This document shows positions 903 to 43,536 of a stretch of DNA of 43,536 nucleotides, piece by piece; position 1 is the first letter of the stretch; each line of letters begins with the position of its first letter. The stretch is taken from positions 1-43,536 of the IMG/VR virus record IMGVR_UViG_3300020180_000037; one strand, given 5' to 3'. The translations under genes were made by a program, and so were the position numbers. This DNA comes from a virus. The notes below the pieces were generated by a model. That model was given only the letters and a program-made list of their open reading frames with translations. It was not told the DNA's origin and did not search any database.

Positions 903-1949
903 ATGATTAAAGAAATAATAATAACAAAAAGAAACCCGATTGCGTATACAGATTTCACTGCTATTTATCTTAGTAGCTATTTAATTGGCAAGGACTTAGA
1001 AATTGCGAGGAGGCATGAACTAAGCCATATATGGTTACAACATAACACCAGGGGCGGAGCAATTAAAAAGAGTTATGGGAAGGTAAATATTAAGATTCTT
1101 AATATTGCAATGGATATGGAGATTGCAAAGCATATATACACAGTAGAAGACGAAGAAGCTTTTAGCCTGCCAAGAAGCTTACTAAGAGATGGTATCACAA
1201 AAAAGCATTGTATGGAATTCCCAAAATGTATATATATGGAAGATTTCTATGCAGAACTAATTAAGAACCAAAAGAAGATATTAGAAAACATTATATTGGA
1301 TGTGGGGATTAACGAATTAGTGCAGGCAGAAAACAAGATAAATAGCAGTGAAATTATAGATCATGCTAAAAATGAATTAAAGAAAGATAAAAGGAAGTTC
1401 GAGAGAGATAAAAATCTACAAAGCCTACAATCCCGAATTAAGCAATTTAAAGTCAAGCCGTCACTAGGTTCCGAGATAGACAGATATTTAGGCAGATACG
1501 CTAGAACTGTAACTCACTCATACAGCCGACCTAACAGGAGAGATTCTGAATTTATTCAGAAAGGTTACGCAGTAAAGTTGAGATCACCGAGATTGGTTGT
1601 CTACCTAGACAGAAGTGGTAGTTTCGACAATTCCAAGACTTTGAGTGCAAATAGAGAATTAACTAGGCTACTAGTCAAGTATAGAGGAAGGATAAAAAGA
1701 GATATACTATATTTTAACGATTATCTATTAGAGGTTGATCCGATTAACGGCTCTGGTGGTACTAATTACCAAGTTGTTGTAGATGATCTCGTTAAGCAAA
1801 GAGCAAGTTTAGCGGTAATTATAACTGATAATGATTCCGCAGACGGATTAATTATGAATACAAAGATTCCAAAAACATTAGTAGTGTGCATAGGATGTGA
1901 CAGTTCGGATATTGCAAGAAAACTTAATTGTCAAGAATTAATATTATGA
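903..1949 (+). CDS. Metallopeptidase with VWA-like domain (DUF2201-type)
   Basis: A 348-aa protein. The N-terminal half carries a zinc-protease signature HExxHxxxxH (H38, E39, H42, H47). The C-terminal third is VWA-like, with a MIDAS-type DRSGS (236-240), a candidate metal-binding T287 in GGTNY and D309 in IITD. This order, a putative metallopeptidase domain followed by a VWA-like domain, matches the DUF2201 / COG3864 family, which is commonly encoded next to MoxR ATPases as here. The middle (about 120-200) is charged and probably helical. The stop overlaps the start of the first Gly-X gene as ATGA, implying translational coupling. The last codons run through the same AAGAATTAATATT box that separates Gly-X genes, but in another frame, so the gene appears spliced into the array. 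Activity and substrate are unknown. Confidence 0.8.
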   Translation: MIKEIIITKRNPIAYTDFTAIYLSSYLIGKDLEIARRHELSHIWLQHNTRGGAIKKSYGKVNIKILNIAMDMEIAKHIYTVEDEEAFSLPRSLLRDGITKKHCMEFPKCIYMEDFYAELIKNQKKILENIILDVGINELVQAENKINSSEIIDHAKNELKKDKRKFERDKNLQSLQSRIKQFKVKPSLGSEIDRYLGRYARTVTHSYSRPNRRDSEFIQKGYAVKLRSPRLVVYLDRSGSFDNSKTLSANRELTRLLVKYRGRIKRDILYFNDYLLEVDPINGSGGTNYQVVVDDLVKQRASLAVIITDNDSADGLIMNTKIPKTLVVCIGCDSSDIARKLNCQELIL

Positions 1950-2209
1950 GTAGTCCATTAAGTAGAGGTGGATATGGAGATGGATATGGAGATGGAGATG
2001 GATATGGAAATGGACATGGAGATGGATATGGAAATGGATATGGAAATGGATATGGAAATGGATATGGATATGGATATGGATATGGATATGGAGATGGATT
2101 TGGAGATGGATATGGAGATGGATATGGAGATGGATATAGAGATGGAGATGGAAGTGAATATGGATATGGAAATGGAAGATACCCATATAATTTAATAATT
2201 AAGAATTAA
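1946..2209 (+). CDS. Gly-X repeat protein A1
   Basis: 87 aa. The N-terminus is MSSPLSRGG, then alternating Gly with Tyr, Asp, Asn, one His and one Phe, a short break RDGDGSEYG near the C-terminus, and the tail GRYPYNLIIKN. The ATG overlaps the TGA of the metallopeptidase gene; a TTG 18 bases upstream is in frame but lacks the family N-terminus. No signal peptide or membrane segment is visible. The break RDGDGSEYG recurs in copy A4, which indicates shared modules. Function unknown. Confidence 0.85.
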   Translation: MSSPLSRGGYGDGYGDGDGYGNGHGDGYGNGYGNGYGNGYGYGYGYGYGDGFGDGYGDGYGDGYRDGDGSEYGYGNGRYPYNLIIKN

Positions 2210-2213
2210 TATT

Positions 2214-2429
2214 ATGAGTAGCCCATTAAGTAGAGGTGGACGTGGATATGGATATGGATATGAATATGGAAATGGATATGGATTTGGATATGAATATGGA
2301 GATGGATATGGAGATGGATATGGATATGGATATGGATATGGATATGGAGGTGGAGATGGATATGGATATGGATATGGAAATGGATTTGGATATGGAAGAT
2401 ACCCATATAATTTAATAATTAAGAATTAA
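2214..2429 (+). CDS. Gly-X repeat protein A2
   Basis: 71 aa, the shortest complete copy. MSSPLSRGGRG is followed by a Gly-Tyr-dominated core interrupted twice by Tyr-Glu (YEYG), and it ends GNGFGYGRYPYNLIIKN. The same GNGFGYG end is seen in copies A5, A8 and B4. It begins four bases after the stop of A1. Function unknown. Confidence 0.85.
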   Translation: MSSPLSRGGRGYGYGYEYGNGYGFGYEYGDGYGDGYGYGYGYGYGGGDGYGYGYGNGFGYGRYPYNLIIKN

Positions 2430-2433
2430 TATT

Positions 2434-2739
2434 ATGAGTAGCCCATTAAGTAGATATGGAGGTGGATATGGAAATGGATATGGAGATGGATATGGATATG
2501 GAGATGGAGATGGATATGGATATGGATATGGACTTGGAGATGGATATGGAGATGGATATGGAGATGGATATGGATATGGACTTGGATATGGATATGGATA
2601 TGGAAATGGGGATGGATATGGAGATGGATATGGATATGGAGATGGAGATGGAGATGGATATGGATATGGATATGGAAATGGATATAGATATGGAGATGGA
2701 CGTGGAAGATACCCATATAATTTAATAATTAAGAATTAA
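2434..2739 (+). CDS. Gly-X repeat protein A3
   Basis: 101 aa. It starts MSSPLSRYGGGYG, has two Gly-Leu units (codon CTT for TAT or GAT) and ends YRYGDGRGRYPYNLIIKN. Apart from those units the core is Gly with Tyr, Asp or Asn. It is the third unit of array A, four bases from its neighbours. Function unknown. Confidence 0.85.
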   Translation: MSSPLSRYGGGYGNGYGDGYGYGDGDGYGYGYGLGDGYGDGYGDGYGYGLGYGYGYGNGDGYGDGYGYGDGDGDGYGYGYGNGYRYGDGRGRYPYNLIIKN

Positions 2740-2743
2740 TATT

Positions 2744-3007
2744 ATGAGTAGTTCATTAAGTAGAGATGGATATGGATATGGGGATGGGCATGGATATGGA
2801 GATGGAAATGGATATGGAGGTGGAAATGGATATGGATATGGGAATGGGAATGGGAATGGAGATGGATATGGATATGGATATGGATATGGAGGTGGAAATG
2901 GAGATGGATATGGAAATGGATATAGAGATGGAGATGGAAGTGAATATGGATATGGAAATGGATATGGACGTGGAAGATACCCATATAATTTAATAATTAA
3001 GAATTAA
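2744..3007 (+). CDS. Gly-X repeat protein A4
   Basis: 87 aa. The N-terminus is the variant MSSSLSRDG. The core is relatively rich in Gly-Asn and Gly-Gly. It carries the break YRDGDGSEYG near the C-terminus, as in A1, followed by YGRGRYPYNLIIKN. Function unknown. Confidence 0.85.
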   Translation: MSSSLSRDGYGYGDGHGYGDGNGYGGGNGYGYGNGNGNGDGYGYGYGYGGGNGDGYGNGYRDGDGSEYGYGNGYGRGRYPYNLIIKN

Positions 3008-3011
3008 TATT

Positions 3012-3305
3012 ATGAGTAGCCCATTAAGTAGAGATGGATATGGAGATGGATATGGATATGGATTTGGAGATGGAGATGGAGATGGATATGGATATGGAGA
3101 TGGAGATGGAGATGGAGATGGAGATGGATATGGATATGGATATGGAGATGGATATGGGGATGGATTTGGAGATGGACATGGAGATGGACGTGGATATGGA
3201 CGTGGATATGGAAATGGATATGGAAATGGATATGGATATGGAGATGGAGATGGAAATGGATTTGGATATGGAAGATACCCATATAATGTAATAATTAAGA
3301 ATTAA
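3012..3305 (+). CDS. Gly-X repeat protein A5
   Basis: 97 aa. It starts MSSPLSRDG; the core is rich in Gly-Asp (a run of five), then has two Gly-Arg units, and ends GNGFGYGRYPYNVIIKN. The tail has Val for Leu (gta for tta), a substitution shared only with B4. Function unknown. Confidence 0.85.
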   Translation: MSSPLSRDGYGDGYGYGFGDGDGDGYGYGDGDGDGDGDGYGYGYGDGYGDGFGDGHGDGRGYGRGYGNGYGNGYGYGDGDGNGFGYGRYPYNVIIKN

Positions 3306-3309
3306 TATT

Positions 3310-3543
3310 ATGAGTAGCCCATTAAGTAGAGATGGATATGAAAATGGATATGGAGATGGATATGGATATGGATATGGAGATGGGAATGGGAATGGAGATG
3401 GATATGGATATGGATATGGATATGGAGGTGGAAATGGAAATGGAAATGGATGTGGATATGGAGATGGAAATGGAAGTGAATATGGATATGGAAATGGAAA
3501 TGGATGTGGAAGATACCCATATAATTTAATAATTAAGAATTAA
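3310..3543 (+). CDS. Gly-X repeat protein A6 (two cysteines)
   Basis: 77 aa. It starts MSSPLSRDGYENG. It has two Gly-Cys units (TGT in place of TAT), one in the core and one next to the tail, giving NGCGRYPYN; cysteine is otherwise rare in the family (B5 has one). It also has GSEYG as in A1 and A4. Function unknown; a disulfide or metal role for the cysteines is possible but unsupported. Confidence 0.85.
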   Translation: MSSPLSRDGYENGYGDGYGYGYGDGNGNGDGYGYGYGYGGGNGNGNGCGYGDGNGSEYGYGNGNGCGRYPYNLIIKN

Positions 3544-3547
3544 TATT

Positions 3548-3805
3548 ATGAGTAGCCCATTAAGTAGAGATGGAGATGGAGATGGATATGGATATGGATA
3601 TGGATATGGACTTGGAGATGGATATGGAGATGGATATGGAGGTGGATATGGAAATGGATATGGATATGGATATGAAGATGGAGATGGAAATGGATATGGA
3701 TATAGATATGGAGATGGAGATGGGAATGGATATGGATATGGATATGGATATGGAGATGGAGATGGACGTGGAAGCTACCCATATAATTTAATAATTAAGA
3801 ATTAA
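3548..3805 (+). CDS. Gly-X repeat protein A7 (GSYPYN variant)
   Basis: 85 aa. It starts MSSPLSRDGDGDG and ends with the GRGSYPYNLIIKN variant (AGC for AGA). Its 3' part, from the YGYEDGDG unit onward, is identical in nucleotides to copy A9 for about 140 bases. It also matches the partial copies at both window edges, a sign of recent gene conversion or duplication. Function unknown. Confidence 0.85.
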   Translation: MSSPLSRDGDGDGYGYGYGYGLGDGYGDGYGGGYGNGYGYGYEDGDGNGYGYRYGDGDGNGYGYGYGYGDGDGRGSYPYNLIIKN

Positions 3806-3809
3806 TATT

Positions 3810-4127
3810 ATGAGTAGCCCATTAAGTAGAGATGGATATGGAGATGGATATGGAGATGGATTTGGATATGGATATAGATATGGATATAGATATGGAGATA
3901 GGAATGGGGATGGATATGGATATGGAGATGGAGATGGAGATGGAGATGGATATGGATATGGATATGGGGATGGATATGGGGATGGGGATGGAGATGGATA
4001 TGGATATGGATATGGATATGGAGATAGGAATGGGGATGGATATGGGGATGGATATGGATATGGATATGGAGATGGAAATGGATTTGGATATGGAAGATAC
4101 CCATATAATTTAATAATTAAGAATTAA
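3810..4127 (+). CDS. Gly-X repeat protein A8
   Basis: 105 aa, the longest of array A. It starts MSSPLSRDG. A YGDRNGDGYG segment occurs twice, so part of the core was duplicated internally. It ends GNGFGYGRYPYNLIIKN. Function unknown. Confidence 0.85.
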   Translation: MSSPLSRDGYGDGYGDGFGYGYRYGYRYGDRNGDGYGYGDGDGDGDGYGYGYGDGYGDGDGDGYGYGYGYGDRNGDGYGDGYGYGYGDGNGFGYGRYPYNLIIKN

Positions 4128-4131
4128 TATT

Positions 4132-4428
4132 ATGAGGAGCCCATTAAGTAGAGATGGATATGGAGATGGAGATGGAGATGGATATGGATATGGATATGGA
4201 GATGGATATGGAGATGGATTTGGATATGGATATGGATATGGATATGGAAATGGAAATGGATTTGGATATGGAAATGGATATGGATATGGATATGAAGATG
4301 GAGATGGAAATGGATATGGATATAGATATGGAGATGGAGATGGGAATGGATATGGATATGGATATGGATATGGAGATGGAGATGGACGTGGAAGCTACCC
4401 ATATAATTTAATAATTAAGAATATATAG
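4132..4428 (+). CDS. Gly-X repeat protein A9 (last of array A)
   Basis: 98 aa. The N-terminus is MRSPLSRDG. The 3' part is identical to A7, including GSYPYN. The C-terminus is extended by one Ile and ends in TAG because the usual box is changed to aagaatatatag at the array edge. The nuclease gene starts one base later, so the two are probably co-translated. Function unknown. Confidence 0.85.
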   Translation: MRSPLSRDGYGDGDGDGYGYGYGDGYGDGFGYGYGYGYGNGNGFGYGNGYGYGYEDGDGNGYGYRYGDGDGNGYGYGYGYGDGDGRGSYPYNLIIKNI

Positions 4429-4429
4429 C

Positions 4430-4915
4430 ATGAGCATCCTAGAGCTTATTAACAAGAATCAGAGACGTAAAAATACTAAATTTGACGCATTGATGTTTAC
4501 AAAAGCCTTGGTATTAGATACGGAAGTTGTAAAAAAGAAGCCTCCATACGAACCAGCGACAAAGGGTCTATTGTTTTCTGAAGACAGTGCACAATCTTCA
4601 ATTATTGATTACCTGCTGCTACAAATGGTATTAGGCAAATTATTTATTCAAAGGACAAACAATACGCCCGTATGGGATAAAGATCATTATAGATCAATTT
4701 CTAAAGGTCAACACAAGGGGTTTCCTGATATAATAGTGATCAAAGGTGGTCGTATAATATTCTTTGAAGTAAAGTCCTCTATTGGGAAACAAAAAGACGA
4801 TCAAGCACAGATGCAATTATGGGTGGAAGCTCAGGGAGCTGAATATTATATTGTCAGAACGATAGATGCTGTAGAGAGAGCATTAAATCAAGGAGCTCTT
4901 TTAAGTAGTTCTTGA
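4430..4915 (+). CDS. VRR-NUC domain nuclease
   Basis: A 161-aa protein whose C-terminal half is a VRR-NUC (PD-(D/E)xK) nuclease. It shows GFPD (D100), FFEVK (E113, K115) and the following QMQLW and YYIVRTIDA segments typical of the family. N-terminal SEDSAQSSIIDYL fits the acidic helix that precedes the fold. Such stand-alone nucleases are frequent in phage replication modules and act on branched or structured DNA in the family; here the substrate is unknown. It starts one base after the last Gly-X gene. Its 3' end overlaps the convergent holin-like gene by 28 bases. Two CTG codons (residues 62-63) fall where the family usually has leucine. Confidence 0.85.
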   Translation: MSILELINKNQRRKNTKFDALMFTKALVLDTEVVKKKPPYEPATKGLLFSEDSAQSSIIDYLLLQMVLGKLFIQRTNNTPVWDKDHYRSISKGQHKGFPDIIVIKGGRIIFFEVKSSIGKQKDDQAQMQLWVEAQGAEYYIVRTIDAVERALNQGALLSSS

Positions 4916-12128: not shown

Positions 12129-14933
12129 TTATAAGTTATTATAAAAGTCTGATTCTCTCTGGGCATACTCTTGCAGCGCTCTCAATTTCTCCAATGAGAC
12201 TTCTACAGTATCGTTAGTATTAGGTTGCTGTTCAGCCAAGAACTTCCTTTCACTATCGCTTGCAGCAGTACCACTCAAGGCTCTAATAGTTTGCGCTAAT
12301 TGAATATTTAAATTATTCTTAACATATGCCCTATTAGGGTCAGCAACAATTCCACCGAGCTGATCTTGAATCCTGCCTTTTATATTAAGCGGATTGAATA
12401 CTTCAGAATTATTTTTAATAATCTCCTCCATATTATTAAGATTTTGAAGCGCAATATTAGCTGAATTTCGCGCTTTCTTTTCAGTAACACTCAAGATATC
12501 ACTAGTAGTGTCTTGTTTGTACAGTGCATTGTAAGTGGCAGGATCTATAAATCCATTCAACAATCCATATTGCAGAACTTGATTCAATGCTTGAGTGTTA
12601 CCACCTTCATTCATAGGCATCCCCCTTTTTGAGTTTGTATTCATAGACATCCCCATTTGTGAGTTTGTATCCATAGGCATCCCCTCAAATGAACTGATAG
12701 GAGATTGATCCCCATTATTAGTCAGAGTACTAATTAATTGTGGTACGATGTTTATATTTTTAGTAAAGTTTTGCAAACCACTAGGAATCTTAGGAAGCCC
12801 AGGGAGCCCAGGAAGCCCTGGTAATCTTCCAGCGAAACCTTGTAGACTTCTACCCACATTCTGTTCAATCTTATTAACTAGGTTCCCCGTAGGAATCTTT
12901 AAACTACCCAATAATAAAGGTGAAGTGAACGACCCACCTTTGTTATATTGACTTATAACATCAGGAGCGGCTTGATGTAACAAACTCATTTTCTTATATA
13001 AATCACCCAAAACGCTTGAATCATTTTTGACTATAGCACTCAATGATTCCCTGAAGGACATTCTAGCTTGTTCACTTGTTGATAATTGTCTTGATCCAGT
13101 GTTTACTGCTTTATAGGCATTACCTAGAGTATTATCTAACGATTTAATTGTTCCTGTAATATTCCCCATCGACGGATCTTTTGTTAAATTTACGATTCTG
13201 TCAAATACAGATCCTATAGACTTATCATTAATATCCACTCCATTCTCTTCTAATTTTCCTATCCAATTATCAAATAATCCATCCACTTTTCCTACTTTAC
13301 CTTTTATTTCTTCTTCAAAACGTTCAGATAGTTTTTTGTATGCGTTACCCATACCTTCGCCACCAACACCTCCTACTTTCTCGGATCTTACGATTTCAAC
13401 CACCTTCTGTTTCAAAGAAGCTGCATCTTGTATGCCTGTTGGATTTTTATCTGGGATAATTTTTATACCCCTTTCTTCAATTGTTTTTCCGAGCTTATCA
13501 AGATTCCCTTTGAACCCACCTTTAGGTAATGTAGTTTCGACTGCTTTCAATTGCCTAGTTATTGTGCTGTAAAAAGGATCAGTCTTCTCAGTAACTTTCG
13601 AGAGAGCACTTAATGCTCTTTGTTGATCTAACCCCGTTAAGTTCTCTGTAATATAGTTGAGTCTTGCATTTGTTAAATTATTGAACCTATCCGCAACCAA
13701 CCCAGGATCTGTTCCTTTCGTAAGATACTTTTGAGCCAATCCTTGATTCTGACTATCAATAGAACTCAAGATTTTGTTATTAGGAATATTTTTAATCGCT
13801 TTTACCGCTTGACCAAATAAATTTGTTCCTGCTCCGAACGCAAATCCTGTTCCAGCAGCTTCAAGAGTTTTATCAACTTCCTCTCCAGGTCTTGAAGTCC
13901 CAAACCCAAACATACCTGCTGGTATTGCAGTTTTTGCACCAGCACTAAGAGCCTTCCCTAAAACATTAGTACCTCCAGGCACTATCTTTCCTACTGGGGC
14001 TGCATATGATAGTATTCCAACGGCTGATTTTAAGCCGCCTAAACCTGGATTAGACGTATAATCTTGGTTCTCCTCGTCGCTCACTAATAACTTCTGTTGC
14101 TTGAGTACGTTATTCTCGGAGTTGGCAAATGCAGCTTCGAGTGCATTCCCATTTATAATCTCTTTAATATTCCCATCCTCTCCTCTTATATAGATAGTCC
14201 CATCGGGCTGTATTTCAGCTCCCTTAATCTTACCTGCCCTAGCCGCAGCATTAAAAGATGCTTTTTTTATTACGTCTGCGATAGTTTTACCTCCAGACTG
14301 TATCAGAGCAGCAGCAGGATTAATGAGCCCTTGTCTAAATGGTTGGCTCATTGATCCTACTAATCCACCCTCTCCGAATAGATTCCCTTTATCTGTACCG
14401 AATCCAAATGATCCTTCGGTTTCATCAGGAGTTGGTGTTCCTGATGTGACTACTCTGTTTTGTCCAGTTGCAGTATCATATCTACCCATAGTTCCTGGTG
14501 GAGCGACAACTCCATAACCATTATCTATTGGTGTTCCTGGTGCGATTACTCTGTTTTGTCCAGTTGCAGTATCATATCTACCCATAGTTCCTGGTGGAGC
14601 AACAACTCCATAACCATTATCTATTGGTGTTCCTGGTGGTAATCCACCACCTTGATCTTGCATCCCGTAATCATCGTATTGAGGCTGAGGTGCATTTTGC
14701 TGAGACATAGCTTCATTCAACATATTCTTAAAACTTCTTTTCTGCTTTTCCTCGGGACTATTATACGAATAAAACTCGCTCAAGATCTGTTTTTGGACAG
14801 TTGGGCTACCAGCAAAGGACTGAAACATGTTCTTGTAATAATTATAATTGTCTTGATCACTACCCCCAGAAGACGTAGGAGCACTAGGCTTTGGAGATAA
14901 CATTTGATTAAGTCCGTTTAAATCCGATATCAT
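12129..14933 (-). CDS. Large internal virion/ejection-like protein
   Basis: 934 aa. The N-terminal 180 residues are Gln/Asn/Pro/Gly rich and contain two tandem copies of a 32-residue unit (period 96 bases, about 14452-14640; GTPIDNGYGVVAPPG... ATGQNRV). Residues about 290-420 are hydrophobic and Gly/Ala rich, with possible membrane-active helices (LSYAAPVGKIVPGG, GFAFGAGTNLFG). The middle and the end are long helices. Large helical proteins with hydrophobic patches in this position are typical ejected proteins of podoviruses that form the DNA delivery channel. Homology to a named family is not evident. Confidence 0.45.
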   Translation of the reverse strand: MISDLNGLNQMLSPKPSAPTSSGGSDQDNYNYYKNMFQSFAGSPTVQKQILSEFYSYNSPEEKQKRSFKNMLNEAMSQQNAPQPQYDDYGMQDQGGGLPPGTPIDNGYGVVAPPGTMGRYDTATGQNRVIAPGTPIDNGYGVVAPPGTMGRYDTATGQNRVVTSGTPTPDETEGSFGFGTDKGNLFGEGGLVGSMSQPFRQGLINPAAALIQSGGKTIADVIKKASFNAAARAGKIKGAEIQPDGTIYIRGEDGNIKEIINGNALEAAFANSENNVLKQQKLLVSDEENQDYTSNPGLGGLKSAVGILSYAAPVGKIVPGGTNVLGKALSAGAKTAIPAGMFGFGTSRPGEEVDKTLEAAGTGFAFGAGTNLFGQAVKAIKNIPNNKILSSIDSQNQGLAQKYLTKGTDPGLVADRFNNLTNARLNYITENLTGLDQQRALSALSKVTEKTDPFYSTITRQLKAVETTLPKGGFKGNLDKLGKTIEERGIKIIPDKNPTGIQDAASLKQKVVEIVRSEKVGGVGGEGMGNAYKKLSERFEEEIKGKVGKVDGLFDNWIGKLEENGVDINDKSIGSVFDRIVNLTKDPSMGNITGTIKSLDNTLGNAYKAVNTGSRQLSTSEQARMSFRESLSAIVKNDSSVLGDLYKKMSLLHQAAPDVISQYNKGGSFTSPLLLGSLKIPTGNLVNKIEQNVGRSLQGFAGRLPGLPGLPGLPKIPSGLQNFTKNINIVPQLISTLTNNGDQSPISSFEGMPMDTNSQMGMSMNTNSKRGMPMNEGGNTQALNQVLQYGLLNGFIDPATYNALYKQDTTSDILSVTEKKARNSANIALQNLNNMEEIIKNNSEVFNPLNIKGRIQDQLGGIVADPNRAYVKNNLNIQLAQTIRALSGTAASDSERKFLAEQQPNTNDTVEVSLEKLRALQEYAQRESDFYNNL

Positions 14934-29386: not shown

Positions 29387-29487
29387 GGGGTCATAGTACA
29401 GCAGGTAGTACGCCTAATTCAGAATTAGGTGACACGGGATCGTACCCCGTTGACTCCACAAATGCTTGCGTGTTTAGAATGTTCAAT
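29350..29487 (+). repeat. Inverted repeats framing the tRNA
   Basis: Two nested inverted repeats flank the tRNA. An outer 8-bp pair ATTGAACA (29350-29357) / TGTTCAAT (29480-29487) and an inner 12-bp pair CACGTAAGCATT (29366-29377) / AATGCTTGCGTG (29461-29472, one U-G wobble) would place the tRNA at the tip of a long helix. They could form a precursor stem for processing, or a DNA site. Confidence 0.7.
29387..29458 (+). tRNA. tRNA-like gene, anticodon CAG, alanine-type G3:U70
   Basis: A full cloverleaf folds from 72 bases. The acceptor stem GGGGTCA/TGACTCC has a G3:U70 wobble. The D-arm is GTAC/GTAC with loop AGCAGGTA, including G18 G19. The anticodon arm CCTAA-TTCAGAA-TTAGG gives U33 and anticodon CAG. 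The variable loop is 4 bases. The T-arm ACGGG/CCCGT has loop ATCGTAC, in which the usual T54 and A58 are swapped to A and T. The discriminator is A73 and no CCA is encoded. CAG would read the leucine codon CUG, but the short variable loop is not leucine-type, and G3:U70 with A73 is the classic alanyl-tRNA synthetase identity set. It lies on the strand opposite to its flanking genes. Confidence 0.8.
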
Positions 29488-32944: not shown

Positions 32945-33100
32945 ATGAAAATTACAGTAACTAAATTAATTATAATTATAACCATGATTATAATTATAAT
33001 TATAATTATGAAATCCACTTTATCTATACTGGGATTAGATTTTAGCTATGTTGAAGTTATTTGCATTTTAATATTAATTTATTTATTTAAAAAATTATAA
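32945..33100 (+). CDS. Small membrane protein (51 aa)
   Basis: 51 codons. A poly-isoleucine stretch (LIIIITMIIIIIIIM) encoded by an ATAATT microsatellite forms the first membrane segment; a second follows (VEVICILILIYLF). The stop overlaps the next start as TAATG. The microsatellite could change length by slippage in 6-base, frame-keeping steps. Function unknown. Confidence 0.45.
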   Translation: MKITVTKLIIIITMIIIIIIIMKSTLSILGLDFSYVEVICILILIYLFKKL

Positions 33101-33392: not shown

Positions 33393-33495
33393 AATTTGAT
33401 TTATCAGATAGACACAACCGATCTGATATTTCAATCAATTTTATTTAATTTGATTTATCAGATAGACACAACCGATCTGATATTTCAATCAATTT
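33393..33495 (+). repeat. Two 49-bp direct repeats with internal dyads
   Basis: Two identical 49-base copies (33393-33441 and 33447-33495, period 54). Each contains ATCAGAT-(11 bases)-ATCTGAT and outer TTGAT/ATCAA, so each copy is itself an inverted repeat. They end 9 bases before the HTH gene. The form fits operator or iteron sites bound by a dimer, possibly that HTH protein; an origin or recombination role is also possible. Confidence 0.75.
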
Positions 33496-33731: not shown

Positions 33732-35753
33732 ATGAAAACATCCCTCGAAATTCGGAAAGCATTTTTAGAATTCTGGCAAGAAAGTCCAAGAAACTCAAAA
33801 GTCATTCCTAATGCATCACTAGTTCCACTAAATGACCCTACATTACTATTCGTAAACTCAGGAATGTTTCCGATAGTTCCTTACCTATCTGGTCAACCAC
33901 ATCCTTTAGGAAAAAGAGTCCATAACGTCCAAAGATGCATACGCACAAAAGACATTGAAGATGTGGGAGATAATAGGCATTTAGTCTTATTTGAAATGAT
34001 TGGCAATTGGTCTTTAGGTGATTTCACAAAAGCTGAACAAATCCCCTGGTGCCTAGATTTATATATAAATAAATTCGGGCTTGATCCAAGAAAATTATAT
34101 ATTACAGTATGGGCAGGCGATGAAGTTGTGCCAAGAGATGACGAAGCTATAGACTTATGGAAAAAAGCTTTTAAAGATATTTGCAATATGGAGGTAGAAT
34201 TTTGTGATGATATAACAAAAATCCCGAATAATCTAGATGAAGGAAATGAATGGAAGTACAGAATTTATCCTTACGGTCGTGAGGCAAATTGGTGGGAAAG
34301 AGCTCATAGCAAAAATGAATTGGGTGGACCTAGTTCAGAACTTTTCTATGATATTGGAGTAAAAGAACGAGATCAAGATAAATATCATATAAATGATGAC
34401 TCCGGAAGATTTGTAGAGATAGGAAATAATGTTTTTATGCAATATAAATTAGATGATGATTTAAATTACATTCCACTTGAAAAGAAAAATATAGACTTTG
34501 GGGGAGGATTTGACAGGATAATAATGGCTACACAAAACACTATTGACGTCTACGCTACAGATTTATTTCAATCAATAATCAAAGGTATTGAATCGTTATC
34601 AGGAAAAAACTATAAAGGTGGTATAGAAATTAATGAAGATACTAAGGCATTTAGAGTTATTGCTGAACATGTGCGATCTGCTACATTCATTTTAGCCGAT
34701 GGGGTGGTGCCTTCATCAAAAGACCAAGGATATATTCTAAGAAGATTGATTCGAAGAATGGTGCGCTATGCTCATAAACTTGGAATTGAAAATAACTTTG
34801 CAAAAGATTTAGCAATTAATGTCATTGACTACATGAAAAAGGCATATCCTCATTTAGAAGATAAGCAAACTTTCATTTTGAATGAAATAGAAAAAGAAGA
34901 AATTAAATTTAGAAAAACCTTGGTTGCTGGTGAAAAAGAATTCTATAAGTTGATTGAAAGTATTAAAAAATCTGACACTCCAAATAGAAATTTTCTTGAC
35001 GGAGAAAAATCTTTTAAGCTTTATGAAACTTATGGGTTTCCATTTGAACTTATCAAAGAACTCGCTTCTGAAAATGACTTTACTTCTCCTGAATCAGATT
35101 TTGAAGTAGAAATGAAAAAACACCAAGAGAAGTCTCGATCTGGCGCTGAACAGAAATTTAAAGGCGGATTGGCAGATACTAATGTTGAAACAACAAGGCT
35201 ACACACAGCTCACCATTTACTTTTAGCTGCTTTGCAAAAGATTATTGATCCCAACATTAAACAACGTGGAAGTAATATTACTTCAGAAAGATTAAGAATC
35301 GACTTCAATCTCAATCGCAAATTGACACCTGAAGAAATTCAACAAGTTGAAAATCTTGTGAATGAAAAAATCCAAGAAGAATTGCCCGTGGTTCGATTAC
35401 ATATGGACAAGAATAATGCAGAACAGTTAGGTGCTCAAATGGAATCCGGACAAAAATATCCACCAATGGTTTCTATTTATTTTGTTTTGAAACCTTTTAC
35501 AAGAGAACAAGAATTAGAATCACAATTCACAATCGATATTTTGCAAAATTATATGCAACAAGAAAATGGAGGAACTGTTGTACAAAAACAAATGATTCCA
35601 GTACTCAAAGCAAATGCGTTTTCAATGGAATTCTGCGGTGGACCGCACGTTATGAATACAAAAGAAATTGGAGAAGGTGATAAGAAATTCAAAATTTTCA
35701 AGGAAGAAAGCAGCAGTTCTGGCATTAGAAGGATTAAAGCTGGGTTAGTTTGA
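33732..35753 (+). CDS. alaS: Alanyl-tRNA synthetase, C-terminally short form
   Basis: 673 aa against about 875 in E. coli. The catalytic core is complete: NDPTLLFVNSGM, TKDIEDVG, FEMIGNWSLGD (motif 2 region), WNIVFMQ-like NNVFMQYKLD and GGGFDRI (motif 3). The editing domain has its zinc ligands HTAHH (H491, H495) and CGGPH (C635, H639). The C-Ala/DHHA1 domain and the beta-barrel before the editing domain are absent; the protein ends IRRIKAGLV. This short form resembles Patescibacteria enzymes from memory. The residues E. coli uses to read G3:U70 (PSNEN segment; Asp of YGFPVDL) are here PSSKD (327-331) and YGFPFEL. I saw no CTG codon. Flanked by 18-bp direct repeats. It attaches alanine to tRNA. 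Confidence 0.9.
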   Translation: MKTSLEIRKAFLEFWQESPRNSKVIPNASLVPLNDPTLLFVNSGMFPIVPYLSGQPHPLGKRVHNVQRCIRTKDIEDVGDNRHLVLFEMIGNWSLGDFTKAEQIPWCLDLYINKFGLDPRKLYITVWAGDEVVPRDDEAIDLWKKAFKDICNMEVEFCDDITKIPNNLDEGNEWKYRIYPYGREANWWERAHSKNELGGPSSELFYDIGVKERDQDKYHINDDSGRFVEIGNNVFMQYKLDDDLNYIPLEKKNIDFGGGFDRIIMATQNTIDVYATDLFQSIIKGIESLSGKNYKGGIEINEDTKAFRVIAEHVRSATFILADGVVPSSKDQGYILRRLIRRMVRYAHKLGIENNFAKDLAINVIDYMKKAYPHLEDKQTFILNEIEKEEIKFRKTLVAGEKEFYKLIESIKKSDTPNRNFLDGEKSFKLYETYGFPFELIKELASENDFTSPESDFEVEMKKHQEKSRSGAEQKFKGGLADTNVETTRLHTAHHLLLAALQKIIDPNIKQRGSNITSERLRIDFNLNRKLTPEEIQQVENLVNEKIQEELPVVRLHMDKNNAEQLGAQMESGQKYPPMVSIYFVLKPFTREQELESQFTIDILQNYMQQENGGTVVQKQMIPVLKANAFSMEFCGGPHVMNTKEIGEGDKKFKIFKEESSSSGIRRIKAGLV

Positions 35754-41376: not shown

Positions 41377-41652
41377 ATGAACTGGAAGATTTTAACGGTT
41401 GCAGGAGGATTTTATTATTTCGGTAATGAGGTTCAGGCACAAGAAGGTTTTATAGGACTCGATAAATCAGCATTATTTGGGGGTTTTGCCGGAGCTAAAG
41501 GGATGCCAGGGGTTGCAAGAGGTGCCAAAGACGCAACGGTTATATTAGATCAATTTGAGCAAGATACAGTAACCCTTTTCCCTATTACTGCCGTCTACTC
41601 CATTGCATCAAGTGTTAACTTATATACCTTCAAGGGAACAACACTAAGATGA
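41377..41652 (+). CDS. Unknown protein upstream of Gly-X array B
   Basis: 91 aa, MNWKILTVAGGFYYFGNEVQ then a Gly-rich patch FGGFAGAKGMPGVARGAKDA and a beta-rich C-terminus (VTLFPITAVYSIASSVNLYT). No signal peptide is convincing. I have seen similar small proteins in phages without knowing a role. Its TGA overlaps the ATG of the first gene of array B (ATGA), just as the metallopeptidase gene overlaps array A. Confidence 0.5.
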   Translation: MNWKILTVAGGFYYFGNEVQAQEGFIGLDKSALFGGFAGAKGMPGVARGAKDATVILDQFEQDTVTLFPITAVYSIASSVNLYTFKGTTLR

Positions 41653-41936
41653 GTAGCCCATTAAGTAGAGGTGGACGTGGAGATGGACATGGAGATGGAT
41701 ATGGAAATGGAGGTGGAAATGGGAATGGATTTGGAGATGGATATGGATATGGACATGGACATGGATATGGAGATGGATATGGAGATGGATATGGATATGG
41801 ATATGGACGTGGAGATGGAGATGGAGATGGATATGGATATGGATATAGAGATGGAGATGGGAATGGAAATGGATATGGATTTGGAGATGGAAATGGAGAT
41901 GGAAGATACCCATATAATTTAATAATTAAAAATTAA
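41649..41936 (+). CDS. Gly-X repeat protein B1
   Basis: 95 aa. MSSPLSRGGRGDGHG, three Gly-His units and Gly-Asp-rich cores, ending GFGDGNGDGRYPYNLIIKN, an end shared with B2. ATG overlaps the stop of the preceding gene. Function unknown. Confidence 0.85.
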   Translation: MSSPLSRGGRGDGHGDGYGNGGGNGNGFGDGYGYGHGHGYGDGYGDGYGYGYGRGDGDGDGYGYGYRDGDGNGNGYGFGDGNGDGRYPYNLIIKN

Positions 41937-41940
41937 TATT

Positions 41941-42198
41941 ATGAGTAGTCCATTAAGTAGAGGTGGATATGGAAATGGATATGGATTTGGATATGGATTT
42001 GGATTTGGATTTGGAGATGGATATGGAGATGGATATGGAAATGGACGTGGATATGGATATGGATATGGATATGGAGGTGGAAATGGATATGGAGGTGGAT
42101 ATGGATTTGGAGATGGAGATGGAGATGGAGATGGAGATGGATTTGGAGATGGAAATGGAGATGGAAGATACCCATATAATTTAATAATTAAAAATTAA
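41941..42198 (+). CDS. Gly-X repeat protein B2
   Basis: 85 aa. MSSPLSRGGYGNG; the core is unusually rich in Gly-Phe (FGYGFGFGFG), ending FGDGNGDGRYPYNLIIKN. Function unknown. Confidence 0.85.
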   Translation: MSSPLSRGGYGNGYGFGYGFGFGFGDGYGDGYGNGRGYGYGYGYGGGNGYGGGYGFGDGDGDGDGDGFGDGNGDGRYPYNLIIKN

Positions 42199-42202
42199 TA
42201 TT

Positions 42203-42442
42203 ATGAATAGTTTATTAAGTAAATATGGATATGGATATAGACATGGAGATGGAAATGGATATGGATATGGAGATGGACATGGGAATGGGAATGGATATGG
42301 ATATGGATATGGATATGGGAATGGAAATGGGAATGGAGATGGATATGGATATGGATATAGATATGGAGATGGGAATGGGAATGGATATGGATATGGACGT
42401 GGACGTGGAAGATACCCATATAATTTAATAATTAAGAATTAA
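42203..42442 (+). CDS. Gly-X repeat protein B3 (divergent N-terminus)
   Basis: 79 aa. The N-terminus is MNSLLSKYG, the most divergent of the family (tagtttattaagtaaa for tagcccattaagtaga), which may make it the oldest or most drifted copy. The core is rich in Gly-Asn; tail GRGRGRYPYNLIIKN. Function unknown. Confidence 0.85.
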   Translation: MNSLLSKYGYGYRHGDGNGYGYGDGHGNGNGYGYGYGYGNGNGNGDGYGYGYRYGDGNGNGYGYGRGRGRYPYNLIIKN

Positions 42443-42446
42443 TATT

Positions 42447-42782
42447 ATGAGGAGCCCATTAAGTAGAGGTGGACGTGGATATAGATATGGATATAGAGAT
42501 GGACGTGGGATTAGATATGGAGATGGACATGGATATGGAGATAGAGATGGGGATGGATATGGAGATGGATACGGATATGGAGATGGAGATGGAGATGGAG
42601 ATGGAGATGGATATAGATATGGATATGGAGATGGAGATGGAAATGGATATGGATATGGAGATGGATATGAAGATGGAGATGGAGATGGATATGGTGATAG
42701 AGATGGATTTGGAGGTGGAGGTGGAAATGGAAATGGATTTGGATATGGAAGATACCCATATAATGTAATAATTAAAAATTAA
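42447..42782 (+). CDS. Gly-X repeat protein B4 (longest, Arg-rich)
   Basis: 111 aa, the longest complete copy. MRSPLSRGGRGYRYGYRDGR is followed by a GIRYG break, several Asp-Arg units and a Gly-Gly run near the end. The tail is NVIIKN, shared with A5. Its arginines make it the most basic member. Function unknown. Confidence 0.85.
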   Translation: MRSPLSRGGRGYRYGYRDGRGIRYGDGHGYGDRDGDGYGDGYGYGDGDGDGDGDGYRYGYGDGDGNGYGYGDGYEDGDGDGYGDRDGFGGGGGNGNGFGYGRYPYNVIIKN

Positions 42783-42786
42783 TATT

Positions 42787-43068
42787 ATGAGTAGCCCATT
42801 AAGTAGATATGGACGTGGATATGGATATGAAAATGGATATGGAAATGGATATGGAGATGGAAATGGAGATGGATATGGATACGGATATGGAGATGGATAT
42901 GGAGATGGATATGGATATGGAGATGGATATGGAGGTGGATATGGATATGGATATGGATATGGATATGGATATAAAGATGGATATGGAACTGGAGGTGGAT
43001 ATGGATGTGGATATGGAGGTGGAAATGGAGATGGAAGATACCCATATAATTTAATAATTAAAAATTAA
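42787..43068 (+). CDS. Gly-X repeat protein B5
   Basis: 93 aa. MSSPLSRYGRGYGYENG; contains YKDGYGTG near the C-terminus, a module shared with B6 only, then one Gly-Cys unit. Tail GRYPYNLIIKN. Function unknown. Confidence 0.85.
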   Translation: MSSPLSRYGRGYGYENGYGNGYGDGNGDGYGYGYGDGYGDGYGYGDGYGGGYGYGYGYGYGYKDGYGTGGGYGCGYGGGNGDGRYPYNLIIKN

Positions 43069-43072
43069 TATT

Positions 43073-43348
43073 ATGAGTAGTCCATTAAGTAGAGGTGGAT
43101 ATGGAGATGGAAATAGATATGGATATGGAAATGGAGGTGGAAATGGGAATGGATTTGGAGATAGATATGGATATGGATATGGACATGGATATGGAGATGG
43201 ATATGGATATGGATATGGATATGGAGGTGGAAATGGATTTGGATTTGGATATGGATATAAAGATGGATATGGAACTGGAAATGGATATGGATATGGAAAT
43301 GGAGATGGACGTGGAAGATACCCATATAATTTAATAATTAAAAATTAA
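43073..43348 (+). CDS. Gly-X repeat protein B6
   Basis: 91 aa. MSSPLSRGGYGDGNRYG; contains GGGNGNGFGD as in B1 and YKDGYGTG as in B5, so it reads as a mosaic of its neighbours. Tail GRGRYPYNLIIKN. Function unknown. Confidence 0.85.
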   Translation: MSSPLSRGGYGDGNRYGYGNGGGNGNGFGDRYGYGYGHGYGDGYGYGYGYGGGNGFGFGYGYKDGYGTGNGYGYGNGDGRGRYPYNLIIKN

Positions 43349-43352
43349 TATT

Positions 43353-43536
43353 ATGAGTAGCCCATTAAGTAGAGATGGAGATGGAGATGGATATGGATAT
43401 GGGAATGGATATGGGAATGGATATGGATATGGAAATGGAGGTGGATATGGAAATGGATATGGATATGGATATGAAGATGGAGATGGAAATGGATATGGAT
43501 ATAGATATGGAGATGGAGATGGGAATGGATATGGAT
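43353..43536 (+). CDS. Gly-X repeat protein B7, cut by window end
   Basis: 61 codons visible, MSSPLSRDGDGDG then core with YEDGDGNG, matching A7 from a GGAGGTGG unit onward. The final 50 bases equal 16-65 of the window in phase, so the gene most likely continues in the fragment at 2-133 and ends GSYPYNLIIKN. Confidence 0.8.
   Translation, partial: MSSPLSRDGDGDGYGYGNGYGNGYGYGNGGGYGNGYGYGYEDGDGNGYGYRYGDGDGNGYG

Follow-up and report, generated by a model that had tools for sequence, protein, structure and literature searches.

The viral record IMGVR_UViG_3300020180_000037, linear and 43,536 bases long in IMG/VR, was analysed as a whole and is here called the window; it carries two arrays of small genes for Gly-X proteins, in which every other residue is glycine. 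These arrays amount to an amplified version of a gene pair widespread in phages, a small protein of the Pfam family DUF6948 and a low-complexity Gly-X protein, which probably work together in the infected cell. The reading is carried by the coupling of the two genes, the conservation of the peptide pattern independently of the codons used, the in-frame dynamics of the encoding hexanucleotides, and the amplification seen in the window. Taken across phages, sequence comparison points to the Gly-X proteins as a near-constant, fast-changing partner of DUF6948 in hundreds of them.

The window contains 15 complete Gly-X genes and one that is divided between the record ends (43353-43536 and 2-133), all on the plus strand, and the arrays occupy 10% of the record. 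Array 1 has six complete genes within 41649-43348, namely 41649-41936 (95 residues), 41941-42198 (85 residues), 42203-42442 (79 residues, with the most divergent ends, beginning MNSLLSK), 42447-42782 (111 residues), 42787-43068 (93 residues) and 43073-43348 (91 residues); its seventh gene (43353-43536) is truncated by the right end of the record. The fragment at 2-133 is the 3' part of this split gene or of a further copy, and the final 54 bases of the record, in the seventh gene, recur within it at 11-64. Array 2 has nine complete genes within 1946-4428, at 1946-2209 (87 residues), 2214-2429 (71), 2434-2739 (101), 2744-3007 (87), 3012-3305 (97), 3310-3543 (77), 3548-3805 (85), 3810-4127 (105) and 4132-4428 (98, terminating in KNI). 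Within the arrays the spacer between genes is always TAATATTATG, giving a constant 4-base spacing.

The genes have the form MSSPLSR-(X-Gly)n-GRYPYNLIIKN. An N-terminal 21-mer recurs at 15 sites (0.01 expected from shuffles) and a C-terminal 27-mer at 16 sites (0.00 expected). The Gly slots hold glycine in 531 of 566 cases (94%), encoded by GGA in 499 (88%), and about 87% of the partner codons are NAT (TAT 259, GAT 156, AAT 79, CAT 10), so that X is mainly Tyr, Asp or Asn; 13 of the 15 complete proteins are acidic. A sequence-only reading of the window had reported at least 15 complete genes of this composition at 41649-43536 and 1946-4428, and the counts bear it out. It had also called the ends invariant, whereas they recur as described but are only near-constant, with the variants MRSPLSR, MSSSLSR and MNSLLSK at the start and GSYPYN, PYNVIIKN and the final KNI at the end. 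The Lys-Asn codons of the tail are mostly AAA AAT in array 1 and mostly AAG AAT in array 2, an array-specific silent difference that appears to be a sign of homogenisation within each array. Core length is 3 mod 6 bases in all 15 complete genes, and hence every length difference is a multiple of six bases, in agreement with the six-base steps proposed in the same reading.

The partner emerged from the neighbourhoods of Gly-X genes in other phages. A scan of viral contigs for the pattern (GGNNNY)13 returned at least 120 stretches, and 95 of those listed passed a first filter for Gly-X open reading frames (ORFs) of mixed composition. When the neighbours of 104 Gly-X loci were clustered, a single family dominated. 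It occurs at 75 of the loci and, in 70 of 76 cases, is encoded upstream of Gly-X in the same orientation; its identity as DUF6948 (PF22253) came from two loci that bear arrays, and subfamily profiles recovered it in 7 further loci. The converse test, blind to Gly-X, was made on viral contigs with the 80 DUF6948 loci closest to one query, which are not a random sample of the family. A Gly-X ORF followed immediately downstream in 75 of the 80, or in 73 under a stricter filter, versus none of 80 terminase control loci (1.17 Mb). In 53 of 71 loci the Gly-X gene begins 13 bases ahead of the DUF6948 gene's end, and in 8 it begins 4 bases ahead of it; the two are fused in a single ORF in one locus (L275), and the family phrog_18306 matches both DUF6948 and Gly-X parts. 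Contigs end less than 400 bases downstream of DUF6948 in 18 of the 80 loci and upstream in 2, as expected if the Gly-X repeat breaks assemblies.

DUF6948 is present in at least 588 viral contigs, and none was found in the three bacterial genomes searched. Cultured phages with the pair include Iodobacter phage PhiPLPE, Pectobacterium phages Koroua, Ymer and Amona, Vibrio phage IKEMa6-1, Chlorobiaceae phage CV-1-33 and the Rheinheimera Barba phages. Like the window, these have a Gly-X dipeptide-repeat gene directly after a DUF6948-family gene, with length variation in six-base steps; unlike it, they have a single Gly-X gene, whereas the window has about 16 in two arrays, with both ends of the genes constant, codons of the GGA/NAT type and a DUF6948 relative that is highly divergent. 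Recombination or exonuclease genes adjoin the pair in PhiPLPE, Koroua, ctRVW222 and Barba. The name DUF6948 occurs in none of the open papers searched, and searches by term in the genus papers for Barba and Ymer brought up no treatment of this gene; the pair is present in databases but seems undescribed.

In the window, a 91-residue ORF (41377-41652, plus strand) lies directly upstream of array 1 and had been missed in the sequence-only reading; its stop codon TGA and the start ATG of the first Gly-X gene share bases in an ATGA. A profile built on six divergent DUF6948 relatives matches this ORF at 17.2 bits with E 1.2e-4, better read as about 6e-4 since five profiles were tried; the next window ORF reaches 3.9 bits, and none of 2000 shuffles scored as well. 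Its position, which is the one predicted from other phages, adds weight to the kinship. Its nearest subfamily members score at most 19.2 bits, likewise below the DUF6948 cut-off of 27 bits in Pfam, where the ORF itself gave no match. As it falls below that cut-off we term it DUF6948-like rather than a member, and regard it as a putative divergent relative of the family. Its predicted structure has the same EEE-H-EE order of elements as the DUF6948 model, at a mean predicted local distance difference test (pLDDT) of only 68, and a structure search with it reached DUF6948 entries only at E 0.08 or worse. A search of viral contigs found no relatives of this ORF, and a subfamily profile search of the window ORFs found no second DUF6948-like gene.

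Cultured phages allow the dynamics of the Gly-X gene to be followed against unchanged surroundings. Across 115 Rheinheimera Barba records the match takes in the DUF6948-like gene (gp018 in Barba 9A), the Gly-X gene (gp017) and those downstream. In the seven of these phages that were examined, the Gly-X gene is 210 bases long in three, 216 in two and 240 or 252 in the others, while the lengths of its neighbours do not change. Between Barba 9A and 10-9I the DUF6948-like and downstream genes do not differ at all, and Gly-X shows a single 6-base indel; between Barba 19A and 31A a difference of 12 bases is the only one in the Gly-X gene. Eight Pectobacterium/Dickeya phages, compared in all 28 pairs, differ in Gly-X length only by multiples of six, and Ymer and Amona, identical over 1 kb upstream, the DUF6948 gene and 740 bases downstream, differ in Gly-X by 13 substitutions and 18 bases. 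The Gly-X gene therefore evolves far faster than its neighbours and always in hexamer phase, its cores changing by in-frame gain, loss and exchange of hexanucleotides with composition and frame kept. The rate of change is nonetheless moderate, since identity over this stretch reaches 99% or more in most of the 115 Barba records.

Exchange between array genes is suggested by an independent sister contig (G001, IMGVR_UViG_3300020057_000117), which shares 98.8% identity with 28 kb of the window outside the arrays and likewise ends within an array whose genes have the same constant ends. The array is thus not a one-off assembly artefact, the possibility that the earlier reading had named as fatal to it. 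The sister contig has three complete Gly-X genes and one partial, which together form an in-frame mosaic of blocks, the longest 252 bases, that match exactly the window genes at 2744, 2214, 2434, 3810, 3548 and 43353, with a three-hexamer duplication among the blocks. At most of the breakpoints 8-46 bases are common to both source genes. This mosaic would be consistent with homologous exchange and slippage, but short-read assembly could also produce chimaeras, and these metagenomic junctions alone are no proof of exchange. Because both contigs terminate inside an array, the exact copy number in the window is insecure. A degenerate DNA pattern for the C-terminal YPYNLIIKN, following a search proposed with the first reading, recovered the sister contig and nothing else, so the end sequences appear to be lineage-specific. 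The terminase relatives L037 and L038 (57% identity) had the common terminase region only and no array.

Gly-X proteins themselves are common in phages, and the statement that no known phage family has this design is contradicted by their number, by their tie to DUF6948 and by other multi-gene arrays, in L300 (5 genes), G004/L032 (8), G005/L017 (4), L239 (4), L234 (4) and L291 (4). Like the window, these have Gly-X genes in tandem, and in several the ends are constant while the cores vary (in L300 the ends are MGLKAFLKF...GEPNLTSAGATVVEE); they differ in that the constant ends are unrelated, the copies fewer and the X slot in many Ser-rich. The Gly codon of the hexamer is GGC or GGT in most phages as against GGA in the window; as the hexamer letters vary between phages while the peptide pattern stays constant, the peptide is the conserved entity. 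The GGANAT pattern, scanned once against bacterial genomes, hit 94 stretches, most of them plain homogeneous repeats, and no multi-gene array. They include GDGDGD linkers and GYGYGY tails of proteins presumably of the Wzc type; C-terminal GYGYGYGY tails encoded by the same DNA pattern are found in the Bacteroidota proteins L150, L165, L179, L181, L191, L197 and L203, which we take to belong to that type. The idea that Gly-Tyr proteins serve as decoys for host tyrosine kinases with such tails was dropped, most phage Gly-X proteins being rich in Ser and Asp. Pfam matches of Gly-X proteins to TrAA12 lie below the cut-off and were set aside as low-complexity noise.

A second association of Gly-X, besides DUF6948, is with larger phage proteins (L006, L015, L002, L250, L308 and L349) that hold Gly-X segments and have a conserved C-terminal region (...YNWHxxLTGSC...LTxNxYG...); L006, the only one of them searched, matched no Pfam family above the cut-off. 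The Gly-X gene is unannotated in the deposited PhiPLPE record (L350, 1161-1409), and that of ctRVW222 (MW202478.1, 1505-2077) was apparently read in the wrong frame, gaps which indicate that the family is under-annotated. As it is missed or misread in some deposited records and also breaks assemblies, its abundance is probably underestimated.

What the pair might do is suggested by the predicted fold of DUF6948. The model is of high confidence (pLDDT 95.4), and its 50 best matches among solved structures in the PDB are all Sm/LSm proteins or complexes containing them, with probability about 1.0 and target-normalised template modelling score up to 0.69, the best E value being only 0.006. This is a strong structural hint, though not proof, that DUF6948 is Sm-like. 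Several eukaryotic Sm/LSm proteins bear low-complexity tails, such as the Gly-Arg tails of SmD1 and SmB and that of Lsm4, and the link of a predicted Sm-like barrel to a Gly-X dipeptide repeat is reminiscent of them. The differences are that DUF6948 and Gly-X are separate genes as a rule, that X is Tyr, Asp, Ser or Asn rather than Arg, and that no sequence homology was found.

We propose that DUF6948 folds as a barrel of Sm/LSm type and perhaps assembles into a ring that binds RNA, and that the Gly-X protein, a disordered and Tyr-rich chain that is acidic in most of the window proteins, would be its partner inside the infected cell. Gly-X would act through bulk, multivalent, condensate-like properties rather than through a precise sequence, roughly as do the tails of Sm/LSm proteins. 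The pair probably acts early in infection, given its place beside recombination or exonuclease genes in the four phages named above; in the published Barba time course, replication genes fall in the first expression cluster (PMC9305737). In the window phage, tandem duplication would have raised the Gly-X dose to about 16 genes, with homogenisation inside each array keeping the ends alike. A bolder formulation, which we offer tentatively and consider rather doubtful as a whole, is that an undescribed system of two genes occurs in hundreds of tailed phages, where a Sm-like ring of DUF6948 and a translationally coupled, hypervariable but composition-constrained Gly-X protein form a ribonucleoprotein condensate early in infection, the window phage having an amplified, recombining array of the low-complexity component.

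Several points weigh against the amplified pair and its Sm-like interpretation. Array 2 has no DUF6948-like gene and is preceded instead by a VWA/DUF2201-like gene, again with an ATGA overlap. The ORF upstream of array 1 misses the Pfam cut-off and its model is of low confidence, the loci used in the converse test were chosen by closeness to one query, and the Sm likeness is structural only, with the modest E value given above and no sequence match of DUF6948 to any solved Sm protein.

The alternative that fares best is that the arrays were selected only for more Gly-X protein, variation in the cores being a neutral by-product. Its chance is somewhat short of even: it is favoured by the 16 coupled copies with their regular spacing and array-specific silent markers and by the 2-8 copies in other phages, and the single copy in most phages speaks against it. 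It is compatible with the amplified DUF6948/Gly-X pair, in which amplification probably raises the dose as well.

The sequence-only reading saw instead a generator of diversity, in which hexamer slippage and exchange are selected to produce variant binding or surface proteins; this now seems unlikely. The Ymer/Amona and Barba 9A/10-9I comparisons, in which Gly-X differs between identical flanks, and the chimaeric genes of the sister contig favour it, and the generation of in-frame variants by six-base steps stands to that extent, extended to cultured phages and to a sister strain with reshuffled genes. The binding or surface purpose is not supported: the X slot is confined to Tyr, Asp, Ser, Asn, Phe and His with drifting order, as in composition-constrained disordered proteins, the change is not extreme among the Barba records, and the pairs of the Pectobacterium and Barba phages have recombination or exonuclease genes next to them. 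Surface decoration, matrix formation and binding diversity, the roles it had suggested, are unsupported on the same grounds, and a composition that is kept while order and length drift fits a disordered protein acting by bulk properties better than a repertoire of binding faces.

It is very unlikely that the arrays are untranslated or neutral simple-sequence DNA, such as a microsatellite or recombination hot spot, without protein function. Pure hexamer repeats do slip easily and break assemblies, as in the contig ends downstream of DUF6948, but a protein is indicated by peptide ends that stay constant through silent changes, by the coupling of start codons to the preceding stop, by a peptide pattern conserved whatever the codons and by the fusion to DUF6948. 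An extracellular or calcium-binding repeat protein of RTX-like or matrix-like type is about as improbable. The Gly/Asp richness and acidity of the window proteins recall RTX repeats, but their period is two residues or six bases and not the RTX nonapeptide GGxGxDxUx, the short N-termini have no obvious secretion signal when judged by eye, no type I secretion context was seen, and the coupled partner has a predicted Sm-like fold. The target of a diversity-generating retroelement, its NNT partner codons made from AAT, can practically be dismissed: such elements likewise cause in-frame variation mainly at the first and second positions of NNT codons, and the partner codons here are almost all NNT, but an RVT_1 search of the record gave no reverse transcriptase while controls were detected, change proceeds by six-base steps and block exchange through repeat slippage and exchange, and the first position of the X codon varies over all bases with the third fixed.

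For a tightly linked and uncharacterised gene pair, the predicted Sm-like fold of DUF6948 gives a first testable hypothesis, and for work in the laboratory the Barba phages and Rheinheimera sp. BAL341, the aquatic bacterium they infect, are at hand. The window, as an extreme expansion, lends itself to the study of how low-complexity proteins are amplified and homogenised by phages.

Other genes adjoin or separate the arrays, all on the plus strand. Between the arrays lie a MoxR-type AAA+ ATPase (135-881; Pfam AAA_5, E 1.7e-9) and the VWA/DUF2201-like protein (903-1949; DUF2201 at 20.9 bits, below the 26.4 cut-off; phrog_1314, E 2.8e-17), whose TGA overlaps the ATG of array 2; PHROG 1314 bears the name 'HNH endonuclease', and this MoxR-VWA pair spans 135-1949. 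Array 2 is followed directly by a nuclease-like gene of the VRR-NUC/Holliday-resolvase type (4430-4915; phrog_93 endonuclease, E 4.4e-11; phrog_5702 Holliday junction resolvase, E 1.6e-9).

Farther away, the record encodes an alanyl-tRNA synthetase of 673 residues (33732-35753, plus strand; tRNA-synt_2c, E 1.6e-118, with tRNA_SAD), which is unusual for a 43 kb phage and whose best match in phage records has 41% identity. Beside this gene, at 33393-33495, a 54-base unit is perfectly duplicated in tandem; the match of the sister contig (about 30 kb) to the window stops near 32,950, in the neighbourhood of this duplication. Tandem repeats of 96 and 30 bases, at 14432-14638 and 12609-12684, lie inside a large late-region ORF (12129-14933), and the only tRNA gene of the record is a tRNA-Leu (CAG) at 29387-29459 on the plus strand.

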